Of a stretch of DNA of 64,000 bases, positions 6,621-41,952 are shown in pieces. The translations under genes and the position numbers were made by a program. Under the pieces are notes generated by a model. The model did not search any database and was not told where the DNA came from. It saw nothing but the letters and a program-made list of their open reading frames with translations. The stretch is taken from NCBI RefSeq assembly GCF_030704535.1, contig NC_081819.1, positions 16,149,501 through 16,213,500 of the forward strand, read 5' to 3'. The first letter of the stretch is position 1. Each line of letters opens with the position of its first letter. The stretch comes from Vitis vinifera. Lineage: Eukaryota > Streptophyta > Magnoliopsida > Vitales > Vitaceae.

Positions 6621-7964
6621 TGATATACCAAATGAAAACGTTTAGAGAAGTTAGAAAAAGATATCATGTTAAATTTAATTTTTTTTTTCATGGTTTTTTG
6701 AAAATTTTCAATGTATTGCTTTTGTTTTTAATAACTAGTGAAAACAATTTCATACTTATCCTCTAAAAAGTATTCTTTATTTCATTTTATGTTTAAAAAA
6801 TTGTTTTTAGAAAACACAATCTTTTAAAAACAATATTCTATTTTTAAAAACAAAAAACTATTGAGCCCTAAGCCTAAATTCTTCATAAAAATATCCACAA
6901 ACCATCATGGGAAACTATAGTTAAACACTGCATCAAATGCTTAATGGCTTCAAATCCAAATGATTAAACTTGTATCCAAATGGGAAACTAAACAAAGTGA
7001 TGTCATGGGTGTGGGTTGACCTTACGATGACCACCAAAATTGGATGGTGTTTGATTCAACCCAATTTTAAATTGAATTTGCTTTGGGTATTAGAAAATGG
7101 GTGGAGTGATGATGATCAATGACATCACTAGATTCCACACTACACGGCAGATGTAGAGGATTGGGCCCCCCATTTTTGTCGTTTTTCCTTCAAGTATCCC
7201 ACCCAAATTCCCCTTTGGCATCAAACTTTTCATCATTATTTTATTAGTGCCCTTATTCTTTTATTTTTGTTCTTCCCCTCCCACATATTTGCCTTTAGAA
7301 TGCCCTTTAATCACCAAACTACCACCCCCCATCCTTTATTTTCTTTTAAATATTTCATGATTTATTTTATAAATTATTAATGCAAAATATTATCTCAATA
7401 AAATATAATGGGTATTGTTGATTTTAATTTTAAAAAATTAAAAATATTCTTTTTACACATTTGGTAATATTTTTTAATTTGATTTTATTTATTAATGATA
7501 ATTATTGGGTCATGGGTTTTCAAATAATTTGAGAATTTTGGGCATGAAAATATTTTTATAATATATACTAATTTTGAGCATCCATTACCTTATGAATGTA
7601 TTAGTCAAAGATACATTACAACCATTGAATTAAATATTATTTATTTCACTACTAATGAGACTTTGAATTTACTTTTTGAAGTTGAGAAGAAGTGGATGGA
7701 CGTAGTATGTTTTTTTAATTCAATGGTGCCAAGGCACTTTGTAAAATAATTTAGAGTAAATCACAAATAAAATAATATCAAGCTTAAATTATGCTTTCAA
7801 ATAATTAATTCTACTAAGGTATTTGGTTAAAATTTGAAGTACAAAATTTATGACAAGTACATCAATTAATTAGATATATTTTTTTTTGAAAAATATTAAT
7901 GAAAAAAATCTATTTAATATTTAAATATAATTTAAGGTTGATATTATTAACCAAATCATGCACA
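6621..7964. other. Intergenic DNA with a less AT-rich patch
   Basis: No gene seen. About 6900-7330 is clearly less AT-rich than its surroundings and is not obviously repetitive. The rest is A/T-run DNA. Confidence 0.4.
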
Positions 7965-8325
7965 CAAGCAGAAAATAAAGAAAAAGACAATTTTTAATGT
8001 GGTTCGATCATCAATGTAATCCTTATGTCAATGGAGTATATCAACACTCAATAATCTACTAATCAAAATGAATTTAAAGAGTTATAATGGTGAAACTCTA
8101 AAAAAACTCTCTCAATTGTTGTCACACTCTCTAAAAAAATAAAACCCTAAACATAAAAGGGTTAAATATATAATAAGGACAAACACGTCAATTATCGTAT
8201 AAAAATCTCGTAGGGTGCTACCCTCTTTAACCTCGCGAGCTAACTAGGTAATTCGACCCTTAACATTCTGAGTGAAACACAACAAAATTGATTTAGACTT
8301 AATAATCCAATAGATATTATTTTAA
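7965..8325 (-). repeat. LTR-like dispersed repeat, copy B
   Basis: Full-length match to 1585-1955 (copy A), in the same orientation. It includes the conserved GTGGTTCGAT block, the AACCCTTTTATG/CATAAAAGGGTT block and the terminal AATCCAATAG. No primer-binding site could be read beside it. Confidence 0.7.
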
Positions 8326-9315
8326 AAAAAAAATAATATTTGAAGTAGGATTTGGTACTTTAATTTTTTAATCAATTTTCAAAAACACTTTTTTTTTTTT
8401 AATGTAAGCTTTTAGGAATTTTAATATTTTATATAAAGTATTTTGTTTTTATTTGAATCCAAATAAGGTCTTTATTTTTATTTTAGTGGAAATAGTTTAA
8501 ATAAGCAAAAGTTTTGAATCATTATTCGAATATTTTGTCAATTCTTGGTTTATAAAAATAATTTAAAATTTATATTACAAGATTATTCAAATTTAGTTAT
8601 TGGGTTTTTTCTAGCCTATTTAATAATAACAATATAAATAAAAAATATTGAAGTAATGTCTAGTAATTCTTGTTCTCTTACATTTCCATGATTATTCAAT
8701 AAACACTTCCATCTCTAAGCAAACCCTTGTTGTTTTCATTTTAATATTGCACTAATTCATCATTTCAAAATATAATGTCATTTTATTTGCTTGAATAAAA
8801 ATAATTTAAAATTTTAAAAATTATCCAAATTCAATTATTAAGTTTTTCCTATCGAATTTAATAATAATACATTTGAAAATAAAAAAGATTGTCGGAAATC
8901 CCTAAGAAGAGAAATGCATGAATAAATAAAAACATTGAAGTAATGTGTGGCAATTCTTGTTGTCTTCCACCTCTCCGATTGACATGTAAACATATAGATC
9001 TCTAAATAAATTCACGTCATTCTCGTTTAAATATTTTATTGGCGTATCATTTCAAAAAAATTTATAATATTAGCTTATTTGCTTGAATTCACTAAATTAT
9101 TATTAAAATATAAAAATAATTTAAAAATTATATTACAAAAATTTATCCTAATTCAAATATTGAATTTTTTTATAGCCAATTTAATAACACAACATATTTG
9201 AGAAAAAAAAAAAAACGATTGTTGGAGAACCCATGGAAGAAAAATAAATGAATAAATGAAAACATTGAAGTAATGAGTAGCAATTGTTATTGTCTTCCAC
9301 ATCCATGATTGACAT

Positions 9316-9412
9316 GCAAACACTTAAGATTTCTAAATAAAGTCACATCATTTTCGTCTAGATACGCAAACATTTAAGATTTCTAAATAAAGTCACATCA
9401 TTCTTGTCTAGA
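9316..9412 (+). repeat. 49-bp tandem duplication inside one array unit
   Basis: GCAAACACTTAAGATTTC through TCGTCTAGATA is followed directly by a near-identical copy starting at about 9365. It shows that the array is still rearranging on a finer scale. Confidence 0.85.
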
Positions 9413-11204
9413 TGTCTCACTAGTGTATCATTTCAAACTTTTATATAATTTTAGTTCATTTGCTTGAATTCACTAAATTATTATCAAAATATAAAAATAA
9501 TTTAAAAATTATAGCACACAAAATCATCCTAATATGATTATTGAATTTTTCATAACCAATTTAATAACACAACATATTTGAAAATAAAAACGATAGTCAG
9601 AAAACCCTAAAAAGAGAAATAAAGGAATAAATAAAAACATTAAAGCAACGAGTAGTAATTATTATTGTCTTCCACATCCATGGTTGACATACCAACACTT
9701 AGATCTTTAAATAAAGTCCCGTCATTCTCACTTAAATATTCCATTTACCATTTCAAAATTTTTAATAATGTTAGTTTATTTGCTTGAATTCACTAAATTA
9801 TTATTCAATTTTAAAAATAATTTAAAAAATTATAATACACAAAATCATCCTAATACAATTAGTGAATTTTTCATAGCATATTTGAAAAAACAACAGTCAA
9901 AAAACCTCAAAAAAGAGAAGTAAATGAATAAATGAAAACATTGAAATAATGAGTAGCAATTATTATTGTCTTCCACATCCATGGTTGACATGCAAACACT
10001 TAAGATCTCTAAATAAAGTCAAATCACTCTTGTATAAATATTTCACTAATTTACCATTTTAATTTTTTTTAAATGTTAGTTTGTAAAATTATATTACACG
10101 GAATCATCCAATTTAATAACACAACATATTAAAAAAAAAAAAATTGTCAAAAACCCCGAGGAGAGAAATAATTGAACAAATAAAATAATGATTAGCAATT
10201 ATTATTGTCTTCGACATCCATGATTGATATGCAAACACTTAAATCTCTAAGTAAATTCATGTCATTTTTCACTTAAATATTTCAATCACCCATTTTTAAA
10301 ATTTTTTTATAATGCTATTTTATTTTCTCAAATCCACTAAGTTATCATTAAAATGTAAAAGTAATTTAAAAATTAATTATATTATAGAACTATCCAAATT
10401 CAATTATTGAATTGTTCCTAGTTAATTTAATAAAAAAGAAAAAATGATTATAAAAAATCCAAAGAAGATAAATAAAAACATTGAAGTAATCTATAACAAT
10501 TCCTATTGTTTTCCACGTACATCCATAATTGACATCTAAATACTTAGATCTCTAACTAAATTCATGCCATTTTGGCTTAAATATTTCACTAGCTAGTCCA
10601 TCATTTCAAACTTTTTATAATATAAATTTAATTACTCGAATCCATTAAATTATTATTAAAATATAAAAAATATTTAGAAATTATATTACAAAATTATTGA
10701 AATTCAATTATAAAATGTTCTTTTAGATACATTTTTTATTTTTATTTTTAAAAATAAAAATAATAGTAACTTTTATATAAAATATAATAACCCTTGTAAG
10801 AAAAAACATCAATCAACTTATCATAGATTCTTAAAAATTACTTTTAAATATTTCATTTACCATTTCAAATTTTTTAAAAATGTTAGTTTATTTGCTTGAA
10901 TTCACTAAATTATTATTAAAATTTCAAATTATAGTACACAAAATCATCCTAATACAATTATTGAATTTTTCCTACCTAATTTAATAACACAAAATATTTG
11001 AAAAAACAATTGTTCGAAAAACCCCAAAAAGAGAAATAAATAAATAAATGAAAACATTGAAATAATGAGTAGCAATTATTATCGTCTTCCACAAATACCT
11101 CAATTTTTCTAAATGGTTTTTAAAAATCAATATTGTTTTAAGTTAAATTCCTAGAAAGCCCTTATATTGTTTTTAAAATTTTTTGCTTTTTTTGTTTTTG
11201 AAGA

Positions 11205-11212
11205 GTATATAC
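11205..11212. promoter_or_regulatory. P1BS-like site upstream of CCD7
   Basis: GTATATAC fits GNATATNC, the site bound by PHR1-type phosphate-starvation factors, and is palindromic. It lies about 440 bases upstream of the CCD7 start codon. Strigolactone genes are known to rise under phosphate shortage. A match of this length is expected by chance in AT-rich DNA, so function is inference. Confidence 0.35.
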
Positions 11213-11563
11213 AAAAGACACCAAAGTGCTTTTTCTATCCAATGTAATAACAAGATGGTTAAAAAGAAAAGGGAAAAATAAAGGAAAAGGAGGATTGTGA
11301 AGAAGAGAAAAAAATCAGAACATTGAGGCCATGTGTCTGCCATGAATGGGCAATTTTTGCTGTCTTCCATATCCATGATTGAACTGCAAACCAGTGGTGC
11401 ATCCATCACTTTCTTTCATGCTTCTCCATACTCCAACATTGACCCCACCATTCACTCCCATATTCTCAAACCAATTTCCCATGCAACCTTTATAATTCGA
11501 TGGCAAATCTGTAATTCAACCTAATTCTAATGCCAATTTACTTCCCATAAACCACTCCTTGTC

Positions 11564-11572
11564 TATATAAAT
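11564..11572 (+). promoter_or_regulatory. TATA box of CCD7
   Basis: TATATAAAT lies 73 bases before the CCD7 start codon, which would place transcription start near 11595-11605 and give a 5' leader of about 40-50 bases. No better TATA match is closer. Confidence 0.6.
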
Positions 11573-11644
11573 ATATAATACTAGCCTCTTGCCACCTTCA
11601 CACTAATCCTTACTCACTTCCAAAGTATACTCCAAGGTCCAACT

Positions 11645-13257
11645 ATGCAGGCCAAACCTTTCCATGCTGTCCCGGTCAAATTCCCTTCTCCAACAAAGCT
11701 CCCTCTTCTCCAGAAACCTCCGGCCATGCCGGAGAAAGTACTGTCAAGAGCTATTTCCATTTCCACACCTGATACTAGGGTTTCAGATGTCTCGACCCCG
11801 AATTTGGATGACTCCATGGCTGCATTTTGGGATTATCAGTTTCTCTTTATGTCGCAACGCTCTGAAACAGATGGGTCTATTGCTTTACGCGTGGTTGATG
11901 GTGCAATTCCCGTTGATTTTCCTTCGGGTACGTATTTTCTAGCTGGGCCGGGTCTTTTTAGCGATGATCATGGGTCGACGGTCCATCCTTTGGATGGGCA
12001 TGGGTATTTGAGGGCTTTTGCCATTAATGGACCGGGTAAAGAGGTCAAGTTCTCGGCTAGGTATGTGAAAACGGAGGCCCAGTTGGAGGAGCACGACCCG
12101 ATGACCCGTGGGTGGCGATTCACGTACCGCGGCCCGTTTTCGGTATTGAAAGGAGGGAAGAAGGTGGGGAACAGGAAGGTGATGAAAAATGTGGCGAACA
12201 CCAGCGTGTTGAAGTGGGGTGGACGGTTGATGTGCTTGTGGGAGGGTGGAGACCCCTATGAGATTGAATCTGGGACGCTGGATACGATCGGAAGGCTCGA
12301 TATGATGGAGGGCTGTGATTCATTGCATGAAGGTGGCAGCCCCGGCAGTGATGCTTGGGATTTGGCTGCGGCGGCGTTGAAGCCAATTCTACATGGTACG
12401 TACACAAAAACATTGCATTATTTTCCGACTGAGGCTAGGGTGACGGGTTGCATTTGTTGCTTAGATGACAGCCAAGTTACAGCCGTTCACCTCCCCATCA
12501 CGGTGTTGAACCAGAGAGACGCATGAGGTGTCCTCACAGTTCCGTGACGCTAGAGTAGCCCCAAAACCCCCCTCCCACGAATCCCCGATTTCAAAAAATT
12601 CCCATCACTGACTATACATTATATTTTTATATCATAAGATTTCAATGGACGGTCAGAATTATTATTATTATTTAATTAAAATATCATATCTTTGCCTCGT
12701 AATGCCAACAAGAAGTTCCATGTATATATTAGCTGAATTAAAAATTAATGATAATATTTTATTATAAAAATGCAGGAGTGTTCAAGATGCCGGAGAAGCG
12801 GCCACTGTCGCATTATAAAATTGATGCTAAAAGAAATAGGCTTCTGATGATGTGGTGTAACGCAGAAGACATGTTGCTGCCTCGGAGCAATTTTACAATC
12901 TATGGTAAATTAATATTATATTTAATTAAAGCAATGTATGGTATGGTTAGGAGTTTGGAGTTTGGACCGACATGATTTAATTTAATTAAATAAGTACATT
13001 ATGATGCAGAATTTGATTCGAAAATGAAGGTGGTACAAAGGAAAGAGTTCAAGATTCCGGATCATTTGATGATCCATGATTGGGCTTTCACCGATTCTCA
13101 TTATGTCTTGTTCTCCAATCGAATCAAGCTTGATATTCTAGGTAATGTGCCATCCACCATTCCTCTACCTTACCCAAATTTTTTTATTTGTATATTTTCA
13201 AAATTTTTATTTTTTGTATAAAAAAAGAATTACTTATCAATTTTTATTTTTTTAGAA

Positions 13258-13337
<80 letters not shown>

Positions 13338-22153: not shown

Positions 22154-23775
22154 ACCTCACCATATGCTTTTTGAAAATGGTCTCATTCTCCACCAACATG
22201 CATAAACATGGATCAATGCATGTTTATGTAAAGGTATCTTGTGACTAAATGATTCTTAAACCCTTCTAAAGGTTTCGCTCTTGATCTAATGCTTTGACGC
22301 TAATATATTGCCTAATTACGAAGCTACGGTGATTCCAAAATGGACTTGACATTCTTAAATCATCAAGTACTTCTGTGGGAAAAACCTCTTATTCTATGTC
22401 TTTTCAAAATAAATCAAAAGCTAAAAAATGTAGTCATGGATTGTGGTTCTAATGAAGGAGAAAAATGTAATTATTTTAATTTAGAATATTAGATTATTAA
22501 AATTTAAAATAACCAAAAAAAAAAAAAAGGGAAAAGAAAGAGCAAATGGGAGTTATGTTTATTGGAGATATTAATTGAACTTAGAAGAATAAAATCGAAA
22601 CGTTATTTTAATTTTAAAAGACAAAATATGTGGAGATAATTGGGGAAGTTAATGAAAAATTTTATTTTATTTTAGGAAGCTGTTAAATTTTTTTGTAATG
22701 TTGCTTGTTTGACCAAAAATAACCCATTTAAAAAAAATATTTACAAATTAAACTTGATTGCATCCACGCTGTATCTATAATGGATGACTACAATTTTGAC
22801 CACTTAAAAAAAATTTAAAATCATAATCACTAATTACGATTTTAAATTTGAATTTAATTTTAAAGTTGTAATCATCAAATACGGTTTTGATTTAAAATTT
22901 ATATAAATATATAACCATGTTGTTTTCCTTGAAATATTTAACTTTATTTCAAAATAAATAAATTGATTTTGAGTTAAAACTTTTTTTTTATATATAAAAT
23001 TAGTAGTTAACTTTATTTTAAAAATAAATAAATTTATCATATTATTTTTATTTTATATTGGTTAATAAACTTATGTGATTATTTAAAAATAATAATATAT
23101 GAAATAAAATAAAATAAAATATCAATAATTTATTTTATATTGATATTTTTAATTTGATATAAAAATATTTTTTTATTTTATTAAAATAATTGATATTATT
23201 TTAAATATAAATTATAATTAGTTAATTATATTTAAATATAATAAATTATATTTATTTAAAACAAATAAACTATGAAATTATATTTGAAGAAAACAAATAA
23301 AACAAATTATTATATTTATTAATTATTATATATAATATCATATGTATACAAGTTCAATTTAAAATTAAAATTTATCATATTTTATTTTAATATATAATAA
23401 TTTGTTTATAATAAAAAAATAAACAATGTATTACAAACAAACAATTAAAAAAAATATTTTGGTAATTACGATTTTAAATTTATTTTAAAATACTCATCAA
23501 CTATGGTTTTTTTTACATGGATGCCTATGTGATCGGAATGCACTAAATTGAGCATTATTTTAAAATTAAGTTTCTGATTTTTTTTTAAAATATGTTATTT
23601 TGGTAAAAAAAAACTCAATAAATTATACAAATGTCATCAGATTTATTATTTCTTTTATACTTAAAAAAAATAAAAATAAAAATAATATAAGAAAGGGAAA
23701 GAAACAAATGGGGTAAACCCCCCAAAAACCCTCATTTCAAACGCCAGGCTCGCAGAGGGAGAGGAGCGAGCGACA
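22154..23775. other. AT-rich intergenic DNA and NUP62 5' flank
   Basis: Very AT-rich, with a repeated TAATTACGATTTTAAATTT block at about 22831 and 23464 that may mark the ends of one inserted element. NUP62 leader sequence begins somewhere near 23690, where base composition becomes GC-richer. No TATA box is obvious. Confidence 0.45.
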
Positions 23776-26700
23776 ATGTCAGGCTTCAACCTCCCCACTA
23801 GCTCTGCCCCTCCTTCTTCTTCATCATCATCATCAACCTCTTTGTTTCCTTCATTTCCTTCTGCTTCAGCTTCTTCATCGCCTCTCTTCTCTGGAATTTC
23901 TTCCTCTTCTTCTTCCTCAATTTTCCCCTTCTCAAACCCTTCTTCTTCGTCTTCTCCATCTCCATTCTCTTTCGGATCAACCCCTTCTGCTGCGTCCTCT
24001 CTGTTCCCTTCTGTGTCACCATCCACTGAATTCTCACTGAGTTCTTCCCCATTTCAATCTTCTTCCACTTCTTCAAACCCTAGCTCCTCCTCTTCTTCAT
24101 TTTCTTCCCAATTCTCCGCCTTTGGTTCATCTTCGTCCTCCTCTTCCCCTTTCGGTGGGGTAGGATCATTCGCTTCTTCCGCCCAAGGTACGTTCGGCTT
24201 CGGGTTCGGATCCGCTCCAGCGGCATCATTGGCACCGAGTTCTGGGTCGACCCTGTTTGGGGCGTCTTCGATCTCATCCACTGGTTCGTCACTTTTTGGG
24301 GCGGCTTCGCTCTCATCCACCGGTTCGACATTGTTCGGGGCGCCTTCGGTCTCATCGAGTCCTTCCCCTGCATTTTCTACTTCAGCCCCTTTTGGGTCTT
24401 CTTCCTCTTCTTCGGCTGTGATTTCTTCTACTACAACTCCTTCCACTGCTAACACCTTGTTTGGGGCATCTTCGGCTTCGGCTTCTACCGCTAGTGCCTT
24501 GTTTGGGGCTTCTTCAGCTTTGGTGTCTACTGCTACTGCTAATCCATTGTTTGGGGCTTCTTCAGCTTCGGTTTCTACTGCTACTGCTAGTCCATTGTTT
24601 GGGGCTTCTTCGGCTTCGGTTTCTGCTGCTACCCCTGCCTTTTCGTCTCCGTTGTTTGGGGCTTCTTCTCCTGCACCTCCCTTTGGACCTTCTTCTTCGT
24701 CTTCTACTTCGGCTTCAACTGCTCCTTCTGTCCCCAATTTTTTTTCTTCCAGTTCAGCTTCCAATTCGAGCTCTCCAGCACCTGCATTTTCGTTTTTGAA
24801 GGGGACTACGAGTTCTACGACTACTTCTGTATCATCCGCATCCTCTTTGACATCCTCTACCACAAGTTCTGCGGGTTTCTCATTTGGAACACCATCCTCT
24901 TCGGATTTTCAGGCCTCTTTTAGTCTCGGAAATGCAGCTTCTACCACCACTAGTGCCGCCCCAGCATCCTCGGCTTCTGCTGCAACACCGGCGAAGCCTG
25001 CTCCTTTTGGGTTTGGAATGTCATCACCTTCATTATTTTCGACAGTGACTACTACTACTAGTTCTTCGACTCCGGCCGCCGCCACAACCCCAGCTGCTTC
25101 TGCAGCTTCCACCTCGGCGTTTTCTGTCTTTGGGGTGAGTTCTTCAGCTTCAACTGTTGCTTCACCTGCTTTTGGTGTGAGTTCTTCATCATCAACTCAG
25201 GCAACAACTCCAGCATTGCCTGCTTTTGGGGTGGGTTCTTCATCTTCAGCTATTCCTTCAACCATAGCAGCAGCAAGCACAACTAGTTCCTCGACAGCGG
25301 CAGGTTCTTTTCCTGGTTTTGGTGTTACAAGCGCAGGTGCTTCCTCGGGGACTACTAGTTCTTTTCCGAGTTTTTCGTTGCCGACTAAATCATCAGCCCC
25401 TGCTTCATCTTCACAAGCACAAACCACAACTGCTTCTCCACTTTTTGGTGAGTTTGCTTGTCTTCTGTGTTTTTAATATATTCATAATCAACTGCAGCTG
25501 AAGTATTAAATATAATTGTGGGTATCTCTGAAAGGGCTTGTTCATGGCTTGATAGCTATTAGCTAAATTGGTTTTATATTGGATAGCAAGAATTTGTAAT
25601 TTATTTGTGGGTTTGGAGGAAAGTTTAAGTTTAGAGTGTTCGGATTTGCAGAATACTTGTTCTTAATCATTACATTGAAACATGTGGCAAATGAAACGAA
25701 CGTGCTTATTGCCTGCCAAGGAAAATTAGTACTTTGGCTTCATCACTGACAGAAATTGTGGAAAAGAAAGAAAAAAAAATCACCAAATTTCGCAGCAAAT
25801 TTGTTGTGTTTCTCTAGGTTTCTTTAGGCAAAAAAGACGAAGTGAGGTTGAACAGGATATATATATATTATAAGTAAAATGGAATGCAAGAGATGGAATT
25901 TTGTTCTCTGCATTTAATTCCTGAAATGCTAATGTGCCCAGATAAAGTAGCAGCTGTTTGTGTGATCATGTAAATCCTTTTGTAGGTGTTCCTCCTTCCA
26001 CTGCTGTAGCTGTAACAAGTTCCAGTACTACTGCTGTTCAGACATCATCATCCCTGGTTGTAGCTTCTAGTAGTGGGTCAGTACCCTCTTTCTTGGTGGC
26101 TTGGCTTTCTTCTGGTATTTGAGCAATTTTTTATTTTTTATTTTTTAGAAAAGTTATAAAATTTTGTTGCTGACTCTGCTGATACTTTTAGCAAAATTAA
26201 TTCTAATGTGTTTTTGTCAGTAACACTCATCAACTAATTCAAACATTTTTTTCCTCAACATTTTTATGGGAATATCTTGTTATATCCTTTATGTTAGGTT
26301 TTACTAGATTTTTTGTTTCTGAAAAATCATTGATTAGAAATGATATTGAAATATTGTAATACTTTACTGCTGTTTATTTTCTCAAAGGTTGCCTAGTGTA
26401 TCGATTATATAAACTGCAAGTTAATATTTAAATTTGGTAACTTATCAAAAAATATATCATTTATTCCATGTCAAAAACTTTCAGTAACATACTATGGATC
26501 TGAGTCATCCTCTCTTTTTCTCGCTGTCTCTCTCTGTTTTCCCCTTATTTGTCTGTAGGACAAACTCAACTGTCACAACAGCTGTAGCACCTGCTCCGAA
26601 AATGCCATCCGAGATCACTGGGAAAACTGTTGAAGAGGTACCTCACAATATGGATTTTCTTCTATAAAGTAGTGCTTATTTTTATTCTTTATATATGCAA

Positions 26701-37010: not shown

Positions 37011-39593
<2,583 letters not shown>

Positions 39594-40542: not shown

Positions 40543-41442
40543 TTATGCAATAGGTGTATAATCTCTGGCTATTTGAGGAACATTCATCATCATTTGATTC
40601 GGGATGTATGGAAGTATTGGTGGTAGCATGGCAGGCGGGTAGTAGCACGATGATGGTCCAGGATTGCTGGACACTATATTCTCCAAAAGTCCCGATGTGG
40701 GATCATAGTAAAATGGGTGTTGCAATGGCGGAGTATATTGAGTGTTGTTAGTGCCGTTAGATGGGCCACTGAATTGAGAACTATTAGTGTTGTCGCTTGT
40801 CATCATCACCTTAGTCATTCTTGGATTCATCATAGGAGTCATAGGGTTTGGTACTAACGACATTGAGTCAATCATGCCTAGATAGGGAACATGCAAGCTC
40901 TGTGTTGATGGCATTGCATTGTTAGGATAACTAGGGTTTTCCAATGCAGGCCCTTCTAAGAGAGTTTGACTCATCTTCAGTAACTCAACCCTAGACTTGA
41001 TGACTTCAAGCTTAGTGCCCAATGCATTCACGAATTCCCTAAGTTGATCCACTGATAGATCATTCAATCGGTCGTCCCATGTGGAGTATTTAGTCTGGTC
41101 TGCACCTTGGTGACCTAATTTTGAAATATCTTTCTGGATCTTCTTAATCCTTTCCTCGAAAAAGCCTGATAAATCTAGGGTTTTCAACCCTCTTTCCTCC
41201 TTGCTATGTTCTTTGTACCTATTGATAATGGATTTCACCTCCTCAGGATTTGAAGGCCAAAATATTGGCTCCATAGGGCGATCATCTGACGTCCAACTAT
41301 AGATGATTACACATGCATCAACCCCACAAAGAGTTGATATTTCATATGTTTTCTTCTTCAATCCCATCGTTCTCTTTTGGAAGGTAATTTTTCGAGACTT
41401 TTCTTTAGGAATGAGCTCCAATGGCAACCTCGATCGACCCAT
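40543..41442 (-). CDS. Type I MADS-box transcription factor, M-gamma (AGL80-like)
   Basis: DNA-binding regulator of the M-gamma group; characterised relatives act in the female gametophyte and endosperm. A single uninterrupted 299-residue frame, as usual for type I genes. The MADS domain starts at residue 1 (MGRSRLPLELIPKEK, SRKITFQKRTMGLKKK, YEISTLCGVDACVIIYS). An M-gamma-type extension follows (PIFWPSNPEEVKSIINRY), then a coiled coil (WDDRLNDLSVDQLREFVNAL), then a Pro/Asn/Ser/Met-rich tail. The ATG at 41442 is chosen because the MADS domain starts there; an open frame continues upstream without an ATG. A TATA-like box about 510 bases upstream and a donor-like AAG-GTACTT near 41898 suggest an intron in the 5' leader. 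Subfamily is inferred from domain features. Confidence 0.9.
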   Translation of the reverse strand: MGRSRLPLELIPKEKSRKITFQKRTMGLKKKTYEISTLCGVDACVIIYSWTSDDRPMEPIFWPSNPEEVKSIINRYKEHSKEERGLKTLDLSGFFEERIKKIQKDISKLGHQGADQTKYSTWDDRLNDLSVDQLREFVNALGTKLEVIKSRVELLKMSQTLLEGPALENPSYPNNAMPSTQSLHVPYLGMIDSMSLVPNPMTPMMNPRMTKVMMTSDNTNSSQFSGPSNGTNNTQYTPPLQHPFYYDPTSGLLENIVSSNPGPSSCYYPPAMLPPILPYIPNQMMMNVPQIARDYTPIA

Positions 41443-41952
41443 GTTGTGTTCTGCCAAGGAAGAATTCTTCTCAAATTTCCCACCAAAGCTTGTAAACAAA
41501 TATGTTAAAAAAAAAAATAGAATGAAACAATAAAACTAAAGACTCTCATACATGATTTACAAAACATGCTTTTTAAATTTTATCAAACATTTTTTAGACA
41601 AAAAACGTTTTCTAAAATTATTATCAAAATTTTCGAAACCTGTGATTTTTCTCTTCCTTTGAAGAATAAGTATTTAAAACAATTATATTATAAATTCAAT
41701 AAAAGAAAGAATTTTGAAATGGATATATGATTTAACTTTAACAAATGCAGGTAAGAAATTGAGAAGTCGATTGAAGATTATATATATGTAAAAGAATTAT
41801 AAAAGTAAAAAAGAAGTAATACATGTTTGAACATGAAGTAATGCAATAAGGAAAAAGAAGAAGCAAGGAATTTGGGAGAGAGAAAGAGAGAGGAAAGTAC
41901 CTTGGCTGTTAATGGAGAATTTCTTTAATTTGCTTTATGAGAACTCTTTCTT

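Follow-up and report, generated by a model that had tools for sequence, protein, structure and literature searches.

A diverged tandem array upstream of the predicted grapevine CCD7 gene shares sequence with the proximal promoter of that gene

Upstream of the predicted CCD7 gene of grapevine there is an array of direct repeats of about 300 bp, and part of the proximal promoter of the gene is related to half of the repeated unit. To explain how the two came to share sequence, we put together alignments, base composition and a tree of the copies, and the reading to which we give slightly better than even standing is an old local amplification, in which the promoter copy would be the original and would do the regulatory work, and the other copies would be decaying, probably with little or no effect.

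The window is the whole stretch of 64,000 nucleotides that was analysed, C15:16149501-16213500, and the genome searched is its own genome of 495.6 Mb in 21 contigs. The gene starting at 11645 is, by its predicted domains, a carotenoid cleavage dioxygenase. Pfam RPE65 aligns with three exon pieces of this gene, the first at E = 1.2e-31 and the third at E = 2.1e-23, both above the curated cut-off, and the second at E = 1.1e-4, below it. We take the subtype to be CCD7 from general knowledge of the family, in agreement with the earlier note, and from the general meaning of the motif we likewise assume that CTATATAAATA at 11563 is TATA-box-like. Excerpts of PMC9196262 place VvCCD7 on grapevine chromosome 15, and the position of the gene at 11645 on contig C15 agrees with that placement. 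Two long (AT)n runs in the window might serve as length markers, one in an intron of CCD7 at 13260-13333 and a second at 38615-38718. Elsewhere in the window, a long open frame rich in S and F at 23686-25476 on the plus strand weakly matches the Pfam FG nucleoporin repeat (E = 1.2e-4, which does not reach the curated cut-off), and a single long open frame at 40543-41535 on the minus strand contains a MADS-box domain (SRF-TF, 2.8e-15).

Self-BLAST of 8000-11700 finds the direct repeats over 8551-11093, with 67-81% identity in matches of at least 200 bp, and with an offset of about 288-300 bp or multiples of that; examples are 8634-10417 against 8922-10720 at 67% and 8795-9364 against 9491-10040 at 78%. 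We divide the array into nine copies named u1 to u9, using unit boundaries that are our own cuts (Table 1), and all nine still score when left out of their own profile (23-232 bits). The earlier note had described about nine units of about 300 bp running head to tail, and self-BLAST and the unit profile bear this out for the number of copies, but not for the series as a whole, in that u9 lies outside the tandem series and inside a dispersed repeat. Most of the extra length of u3 comes from an internal 50-bp direct duplication at 9316-9413, which is 93% alike by TRF. This duplication and short AT-rich repeats are all that TRF reports in the array; it does not report the 300-bp period, as is expected at such divergence between copies. 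A search with Rfam finds no match at the gathering score within 7500-12000. K80 distances between units range from 0.127 to 0.39 with a median of 0.286, as obtained on the 33 of 36 pairs that have at least 80 shared columns. Taken with plant neutral substitution rates, these distances suggest an age of tens of millions of years, and hence the array should be older than cultivated grape.

Table 1. Features of the array, the promoter and the start of the gene, in window coordinates.
Feature	Position	Strand	Evidence
u1, distal edge copy, diverged, part of the middle missing	8551..8778	+	self-BLAST, profile HMM; leave-one-out 75 bits
u2, TTGACA at 8979	8779..9073	+	self-BLAST; leave-one-out 181 bits
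u3, exact core (18-mer at 9290), TTGACA at 9309	9074..9456	+	self-BLAST; leave-one-out 217 bits
u4, exact core (18-mer at 9665), TTGACA at 9684	9457..9776	+	self-BLAST; leave-one-out 232 bits
u5, exact core (18-mer at 9966), TTGACA at 9985	9777..10079	+	self-BLAST; leave-one-out 193 bits
u6, shortened in its 5' part, core (at 10205) with a single mismatch, without TTGACA	10080..10320	+	self-BLAST; leave-one-out 117 bits
u7, diverged core, TTGACA at 10529	10321..10626	+	self-BLAST; leave-one-out 138 bits
u8, half-unit (X half), cut by the dispersed repeat	10627..10725 (or ..10722)	+	profile alignment; leave-one-out 23 bits
MITE-like repeat, left part (ends approximate)	10726..10848	+	genome matches; six loci compared; alignment
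u9, partial copy enclosed by the MITE-like repeat (left end placed to within about 10 bases)	10849..11093	+	leave-one-out 144 bits
MITE-like repeat, right part (right end approximate)	11094..11213	+	13 other genome places start within one base
Promoter copy (P half, profile 91-242), gene-side edge of the array	11228..11391	+	46.6 bits, E 5.4e-14, 0/2000 shuffles
Conserved core block common to promoter and array	11350..11391	+	36/42 columns equal the unit majority
TATA-box-like CTATATAAATA (motif meaning assumed), outside the repeated unit	11563..11573	+	sequence
First exon of predicted CCD7 (carotenoid cleavage dioxygenase gene)	11645..12394	+	Pfam RPE65 1.2e-31; PDB apocarotenoid oxygenase 3.2e-22

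The gene-side end of the array is, judged from matches elsewhere in the genome, broken by a dispersed MITE-like repeat. The stretch 10735-10850 has at least 47 matches in its own genome, with the query included, from the 40 that were scored of 247 first-look candidates, and the stretch from 11094 is matched at 13 other places of the same genome that begin at that base or one to either side. In 4 of 6 loci that were compared (L031, L033, L035, L036), the left and right parts are adjacent in one element at 17 to 41 bases from each other; L032 has the right part with a short weak match to the left end, and L037 has the left part at both ends. Because the parts are neighbours in other loci, we read the window as holding one MITE-like copy at about 10726-11213 that encloses u9. 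The two parts fit the description of a MITE in being short and dispersed. The left-end sequence recurs inverted at the other end in three of the six loci (L035, L036, L037). In the window copy the right end is weak, and the alignment shows no clear target-site duplication around it. The enclosed region at 10844-11093 is 81% identical to 9732-9977 by self-BLAST. To each of u3, u4, u5 and u6, u9 is the closest copy, with K80 of 0.127-0.151, and u3, u4 and u5 are at 0.177-0.198 from one another.

The promoter copy is recognized by a profile HMM made from the units only. The profile, which included some MITE bases in u8 and u9, scores 46.6 bits against 11228-11391 (E = 5.4e-14), with the next best score in the array-masked 64 kb at 3.1 bits; a profile without the MITE bases gives 48.6 bits to the promoter copy and 1.3 to the next best. 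Dinucleotide shuffles of 11200-11639 reach a maximum of 4.0 bits, none of 2000 equalling the promoter score. These comparisons support the view that the array and the CCD7 proximal promoter share sequence by descent. A chance similarity of AT-rich DNA might be thought of in a region this rich in A+T (array G+C 0.214), but it is refuted by the shuffles and by the scores in the rest of the window, and we give it negligible probability; an alignment no better than shuffled AT-rich DNA, which the earlier note had said would count against its proposal, did not occur. The match spans profile positions 91-242 of 326, about half a unit, and it ends about 170 bp before the TATA-like box and 254 bp before the ATG, so the repeated part carries no core promoter. 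The alignment of the promoter with the unit had previously been drawn at 11238-11450, with quoted letters that are correct and a kinship that is indeed far from chance, but the homology is at 11228-11391 and does not extend to 11450.

It had also been proposed that the last unit of the array is the CCD7 promoter. The half-unit u8 aligns with profile positions 3-98 at 10629-10722, which fits with the promoter copy to make one unit, but the promoter holds just one half of it (P), and the MITE-like repeat is in between. We infer that u8 and the promoter copy are one unit split by the MITE-like repeat. The two halves overlap by 8 profile positions (91-98), as would suit a short target-site duplication, and a half-unit fit this close would arise by chance about 1 time in 20 (17 of 326 phases, by our arithmetic). 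Inside the promoter copy, a 42-bp block at its gene-side end, which was picked from the best BLAST match, has 36 of 42 columns equal to the unit majority, whereas the remainder of the P half has 60 of 104. Column shuffles holding a window as good as this block number 366 of 20000, for a p of about 0.018 with the choice of window allowed for. Within the CCD7 promoter, this block (11350-11391) is the likeliest to be of importance.

The distribution of the unit was followed in the whole genome. DNA searches with u4, u3 and the majority unit return the array, the u3 search also bringing up, on C2 and C11, two short AT-rich matches with unremarkable unit-profile scores. A 19-mer of the core has 40 genome sites in 495.6 Mb when up to 2 mismatches are allowed, of which the 4 with 0-1 mismatch are all in the array. 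The 36 sites with 2 mismatches are outside the array, as compared to 2 for a backwards-pattern control, and the best unit-profile score is 7.7 bits among 39 loci fetched, consisting of these 36 along with L028, L029 and L082. The 23-base core of the promoter, allowed up to 3 mismatches, has 3 sites (the promoter, u3 and one on C19) versus 0 for its control. The search skips common words; with the three unit queries, the first-look candidates that it scored numbered 1, 3 and 1, and the promoter query missed array copies that are about 60% identical to the promoter. Because of this, confinement holds just for copies above roughly 70% identity, a sensitivity limit that is our own estimate. For copies above that limit, the unit is confined to the CCD7 locus in its own genome. 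The earlier note had raised the prospect of hundreds of copies elsewhere, which did not appear in the genome-wide search, although copies below roughly 70% could escape. Hence, the ideas that the unit is a genome-wide satellite or a dispersed transposon were rejected, the unit and core searches both finding the array only, within their sensitivity.

As to the direction in which sequence moved, we lean to growth of the array from the promoter, which fits better than the alternative in which the repeat supplied the promoter. Each of the 8 units in which a P half is present shows 57-62% identity to the promoter copy, and identity among these units is 67-86%. A tree of the eight units and the promoter copy has supports of 43-83 and joins the promoter copy beside u1 with a support of 61. 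Midpoint rooting puts the promoter copy outside the array on a branch of 0.52, which is more than half of the longest path (about 0.80 by our sum). A single outside copy is not placeable by topology; it is branch length and composition, in one species, that point to the promoter coming first. With respect to composition, the array changes relative to the majority base include C to T at 32 of 251 and G to A at 25 of 137, versus A to G at 31 of 953 and T to C at 29 of 755, in an alignment that held a few MITE bases in u8 and u9. Between promoter and units, 50 of 146 columns differ, with G/C in the promoter and A/T in the units in 25, the reverse in 13, and 12 neutral; this 25:13 split carries little weight, and the higher G+C of the promoter confounds it. 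The X half of u8 is an ordinary member of the array, 73-82% identical to the eight other X stretches, even though it is presumed to be the other half of the unit in the promoter, and we count that in favor of the promoter as an outside copy. The outside branch, together with decay toward A+T in the array, fits a kept original in the promoter and decaying copies in the array.

The steps of such an old local amplification can be set out as follows. A stretch of about 300 bp that included one upstream element from the CCD7 promoter would have been amplified locally, head to tail, long ago, and 11228-11391, at the edge nearest the gene, would most likely be the original that survives. The regulatory work would be done by its conserved core of 42 bp, which lies about 170 bp ahead of the TATA-like box. 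The other copies, having no counterpart of the TATA-like box or of the start region, would drift and turn AT-rich, probably with little or no effect of their own today. Later, a MITE-like insertion into the last unit would have separated its upstream half, u8, from the half in the promoter, and another incomplete unit, u9, would have come to sit inside the MITE-like element.

Several observations weigh against parts of this scheme. A promoter copy that evolved faster, at the edge, would look just like a promoter that came first; the support of 61 for its position beside u1 is limited, and the p value of the core is not overwhelming. The split-unit history has to do without a clear target-site duplication and with a half-unit fit that chance could supply. 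Furthermore, u3-u5 keep the core exactly, as a module still at work would too, and the 36 two-mismatch core sites elsewhere far outnumber the 2 of the control. In the opposite scheme, a pre-existing unit by CCD7 would have supplied 11228-11391, and this segment would then have taken on the role of promoter. The promoter copy does sit at the edge of the array in the same orientation and completes the half-unit u8. The most diverged members of a tandem array are usually those at its edges, and u1 at the other edge is diverged as well (67-74%) and is the unit that joins the promoter copy in the tree. However, the promoter copy has about the same distance to every unit, and it is richer in G+C, whereas the changes of the array itself run towards A+T. 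We regard the rebuilding of the promoter from the repeat as rather unlikely.

Whether the copies do anything today is approached through their motifs and their conservation. The earlier note had most units keeping TTGACA beside a conserved sequence; TTGACA is present in 5 of 9 copies (u2, u3, u4, u5, u7), the exact core TGTCTTCCACATCCATG is kept in just 3 of 9 (u3, u4, u5), with one mismatch in u6, and the promoter copy reads TTGAAC at the TTGACA site. The usual W-box is TTGAC[C/T]. We set aside the W-box reading of TTGACA, which is found in 5 of the 9 copies and differs from that consensus. A TTGACC does occur in the promoter at 11439, beyond the stretch that is repeated. Five core stretches gave no match in a text search of published papers. 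Within the array, conservation is 0.785 for the core and 0.776 for the rest, and 65 of 105 windows equal or exceed the core block. Since conservation of the core shows when promoter and array are compared but is nothing special among the array copies, we read this as constraint on the core of the promoter itself, with little or none on the array copies.

That reading bears on two proposals in which the array would be active. One is an additive enhancer series, the core binding an activator or repressor and copy number tuning CCD7, by analogy to the R6 repeat of apple MYB10. It would account for one proximal copy with several upstream copies in the same orientation, for a 17-base core that is exact in three copies, and for a core that is more conserved than its surroundings when the promoter is compared with the array. 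We consider it unlikely, given that the core is not better kept within the array, that u8 and u9 are without all or part of it and u1, u2 and u7 have it altered, and that the promoter copy is without TTGACA at that site. The wider proposal, that copying of the upstream control element of a strigolactone gene produced an array of about eight units specific to this locus, that copy number changes CCD7 output, and that shoot branching is tuned by structural differences in the array from one grapevine to another, seems to us quite improbable. The other proposal makes the array a target of small RNA or methylation that silences CCD7, by analogy to the b1 or FWA repeats, and direct repeats at one locus beside a gene, along with a MITE-like element, do resemble the targeted sequences in the excerpted texts of PMC3798267 and PMC3431836. 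But the CpG observed/expected ratio of the array is 0.69, above 38 of 53 overlapping AT-rich windows of equal size, the P halves are just 67-86% alike, and the CpG scarcity of the promoter is ordinary here, so this proposal is very unlikely in our estimation. Not being depleted of CpG, the array gives no sign of long methylation. The promoter has 1 CpG versus 13.2 expected, a scarcity that was considered as a striking feature and dropped, being ordinary for the window, where 13 of 85 non-overlapping windows of like G+C have no more than 1.

We found no description of the CCD7 upstream array among the matches listed in the literature on grapevine CCD7, on strigolactone-gene promoters and on promoter repeats. 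For breeders and physiologists, the array is a concrete locus to type for copy number. If copy number affects CCD7, at present a possibility, the array would be a natural dosage series of the control element of a hormone gene. For the grapevine strigolactone genes, motifs were counted in the 1500 bp upstream of the ATG, according to excerpts of PMC9196262. A 1500-bp survey of this kind on this assembly would include part of u6, all of u7-u9, the MITE-like repeat and the promoter copy, unaware of the repeats.

Three known systems can be set beside the CCD7 locus, each as it is given in the excerpted text of its source. The Arabidopsis FWA repeats flank the transcription start on either side and fall within a SINE region (PMC3431836). 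The CCD7 locus is like FWA in having a tandem duplication that involves promoter sequence, with a transposable-element component nearby. It is unlike FWA in that about 170 bp separate the end of the repeated part from the TATA-like box downstream, and in that the MITE-like element is an inserted sequence and not the unit; the FWA arrangement of SINE-region repeats to either side of the start was not found here, the homology stopping at 11391 and the searches returning no dispersed copies of the unit. In maize, the b1 hepta-repeat consists of seven units of 853 bp that are specific to the locus; it lies about 100 kb upstream and is the driver of paramutation (PMC3798267). Like b1, the CCD7 locus has a several-fold direct repeat, upstream of a gene, of sequence that is unique to the locus within our sensitivity (roughly >70% identity). 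Unlike b1, the CCD7 array abuts the proximal promoter and shares sequence with it, and it is known from sequence alone. Apple MYB10 R6 has one 23-bp proximal copy, R1, and five further copies, with the short repeat bound by the product of the gene itself and the gain of promoter activity measured (PMC5671642). Like R6, the CCD7 locus has proximal promoter sequence with extra copies in the same promoter region, the one proximal copy being 11228-11391 at 46.6 bits. Unlike the 23 bp of R6, the grapevine unit is about 300 bp, its P halves differ by 14-33% mutually and by 38-43% from the promoter copy, and its description comes entirely from the DNA.
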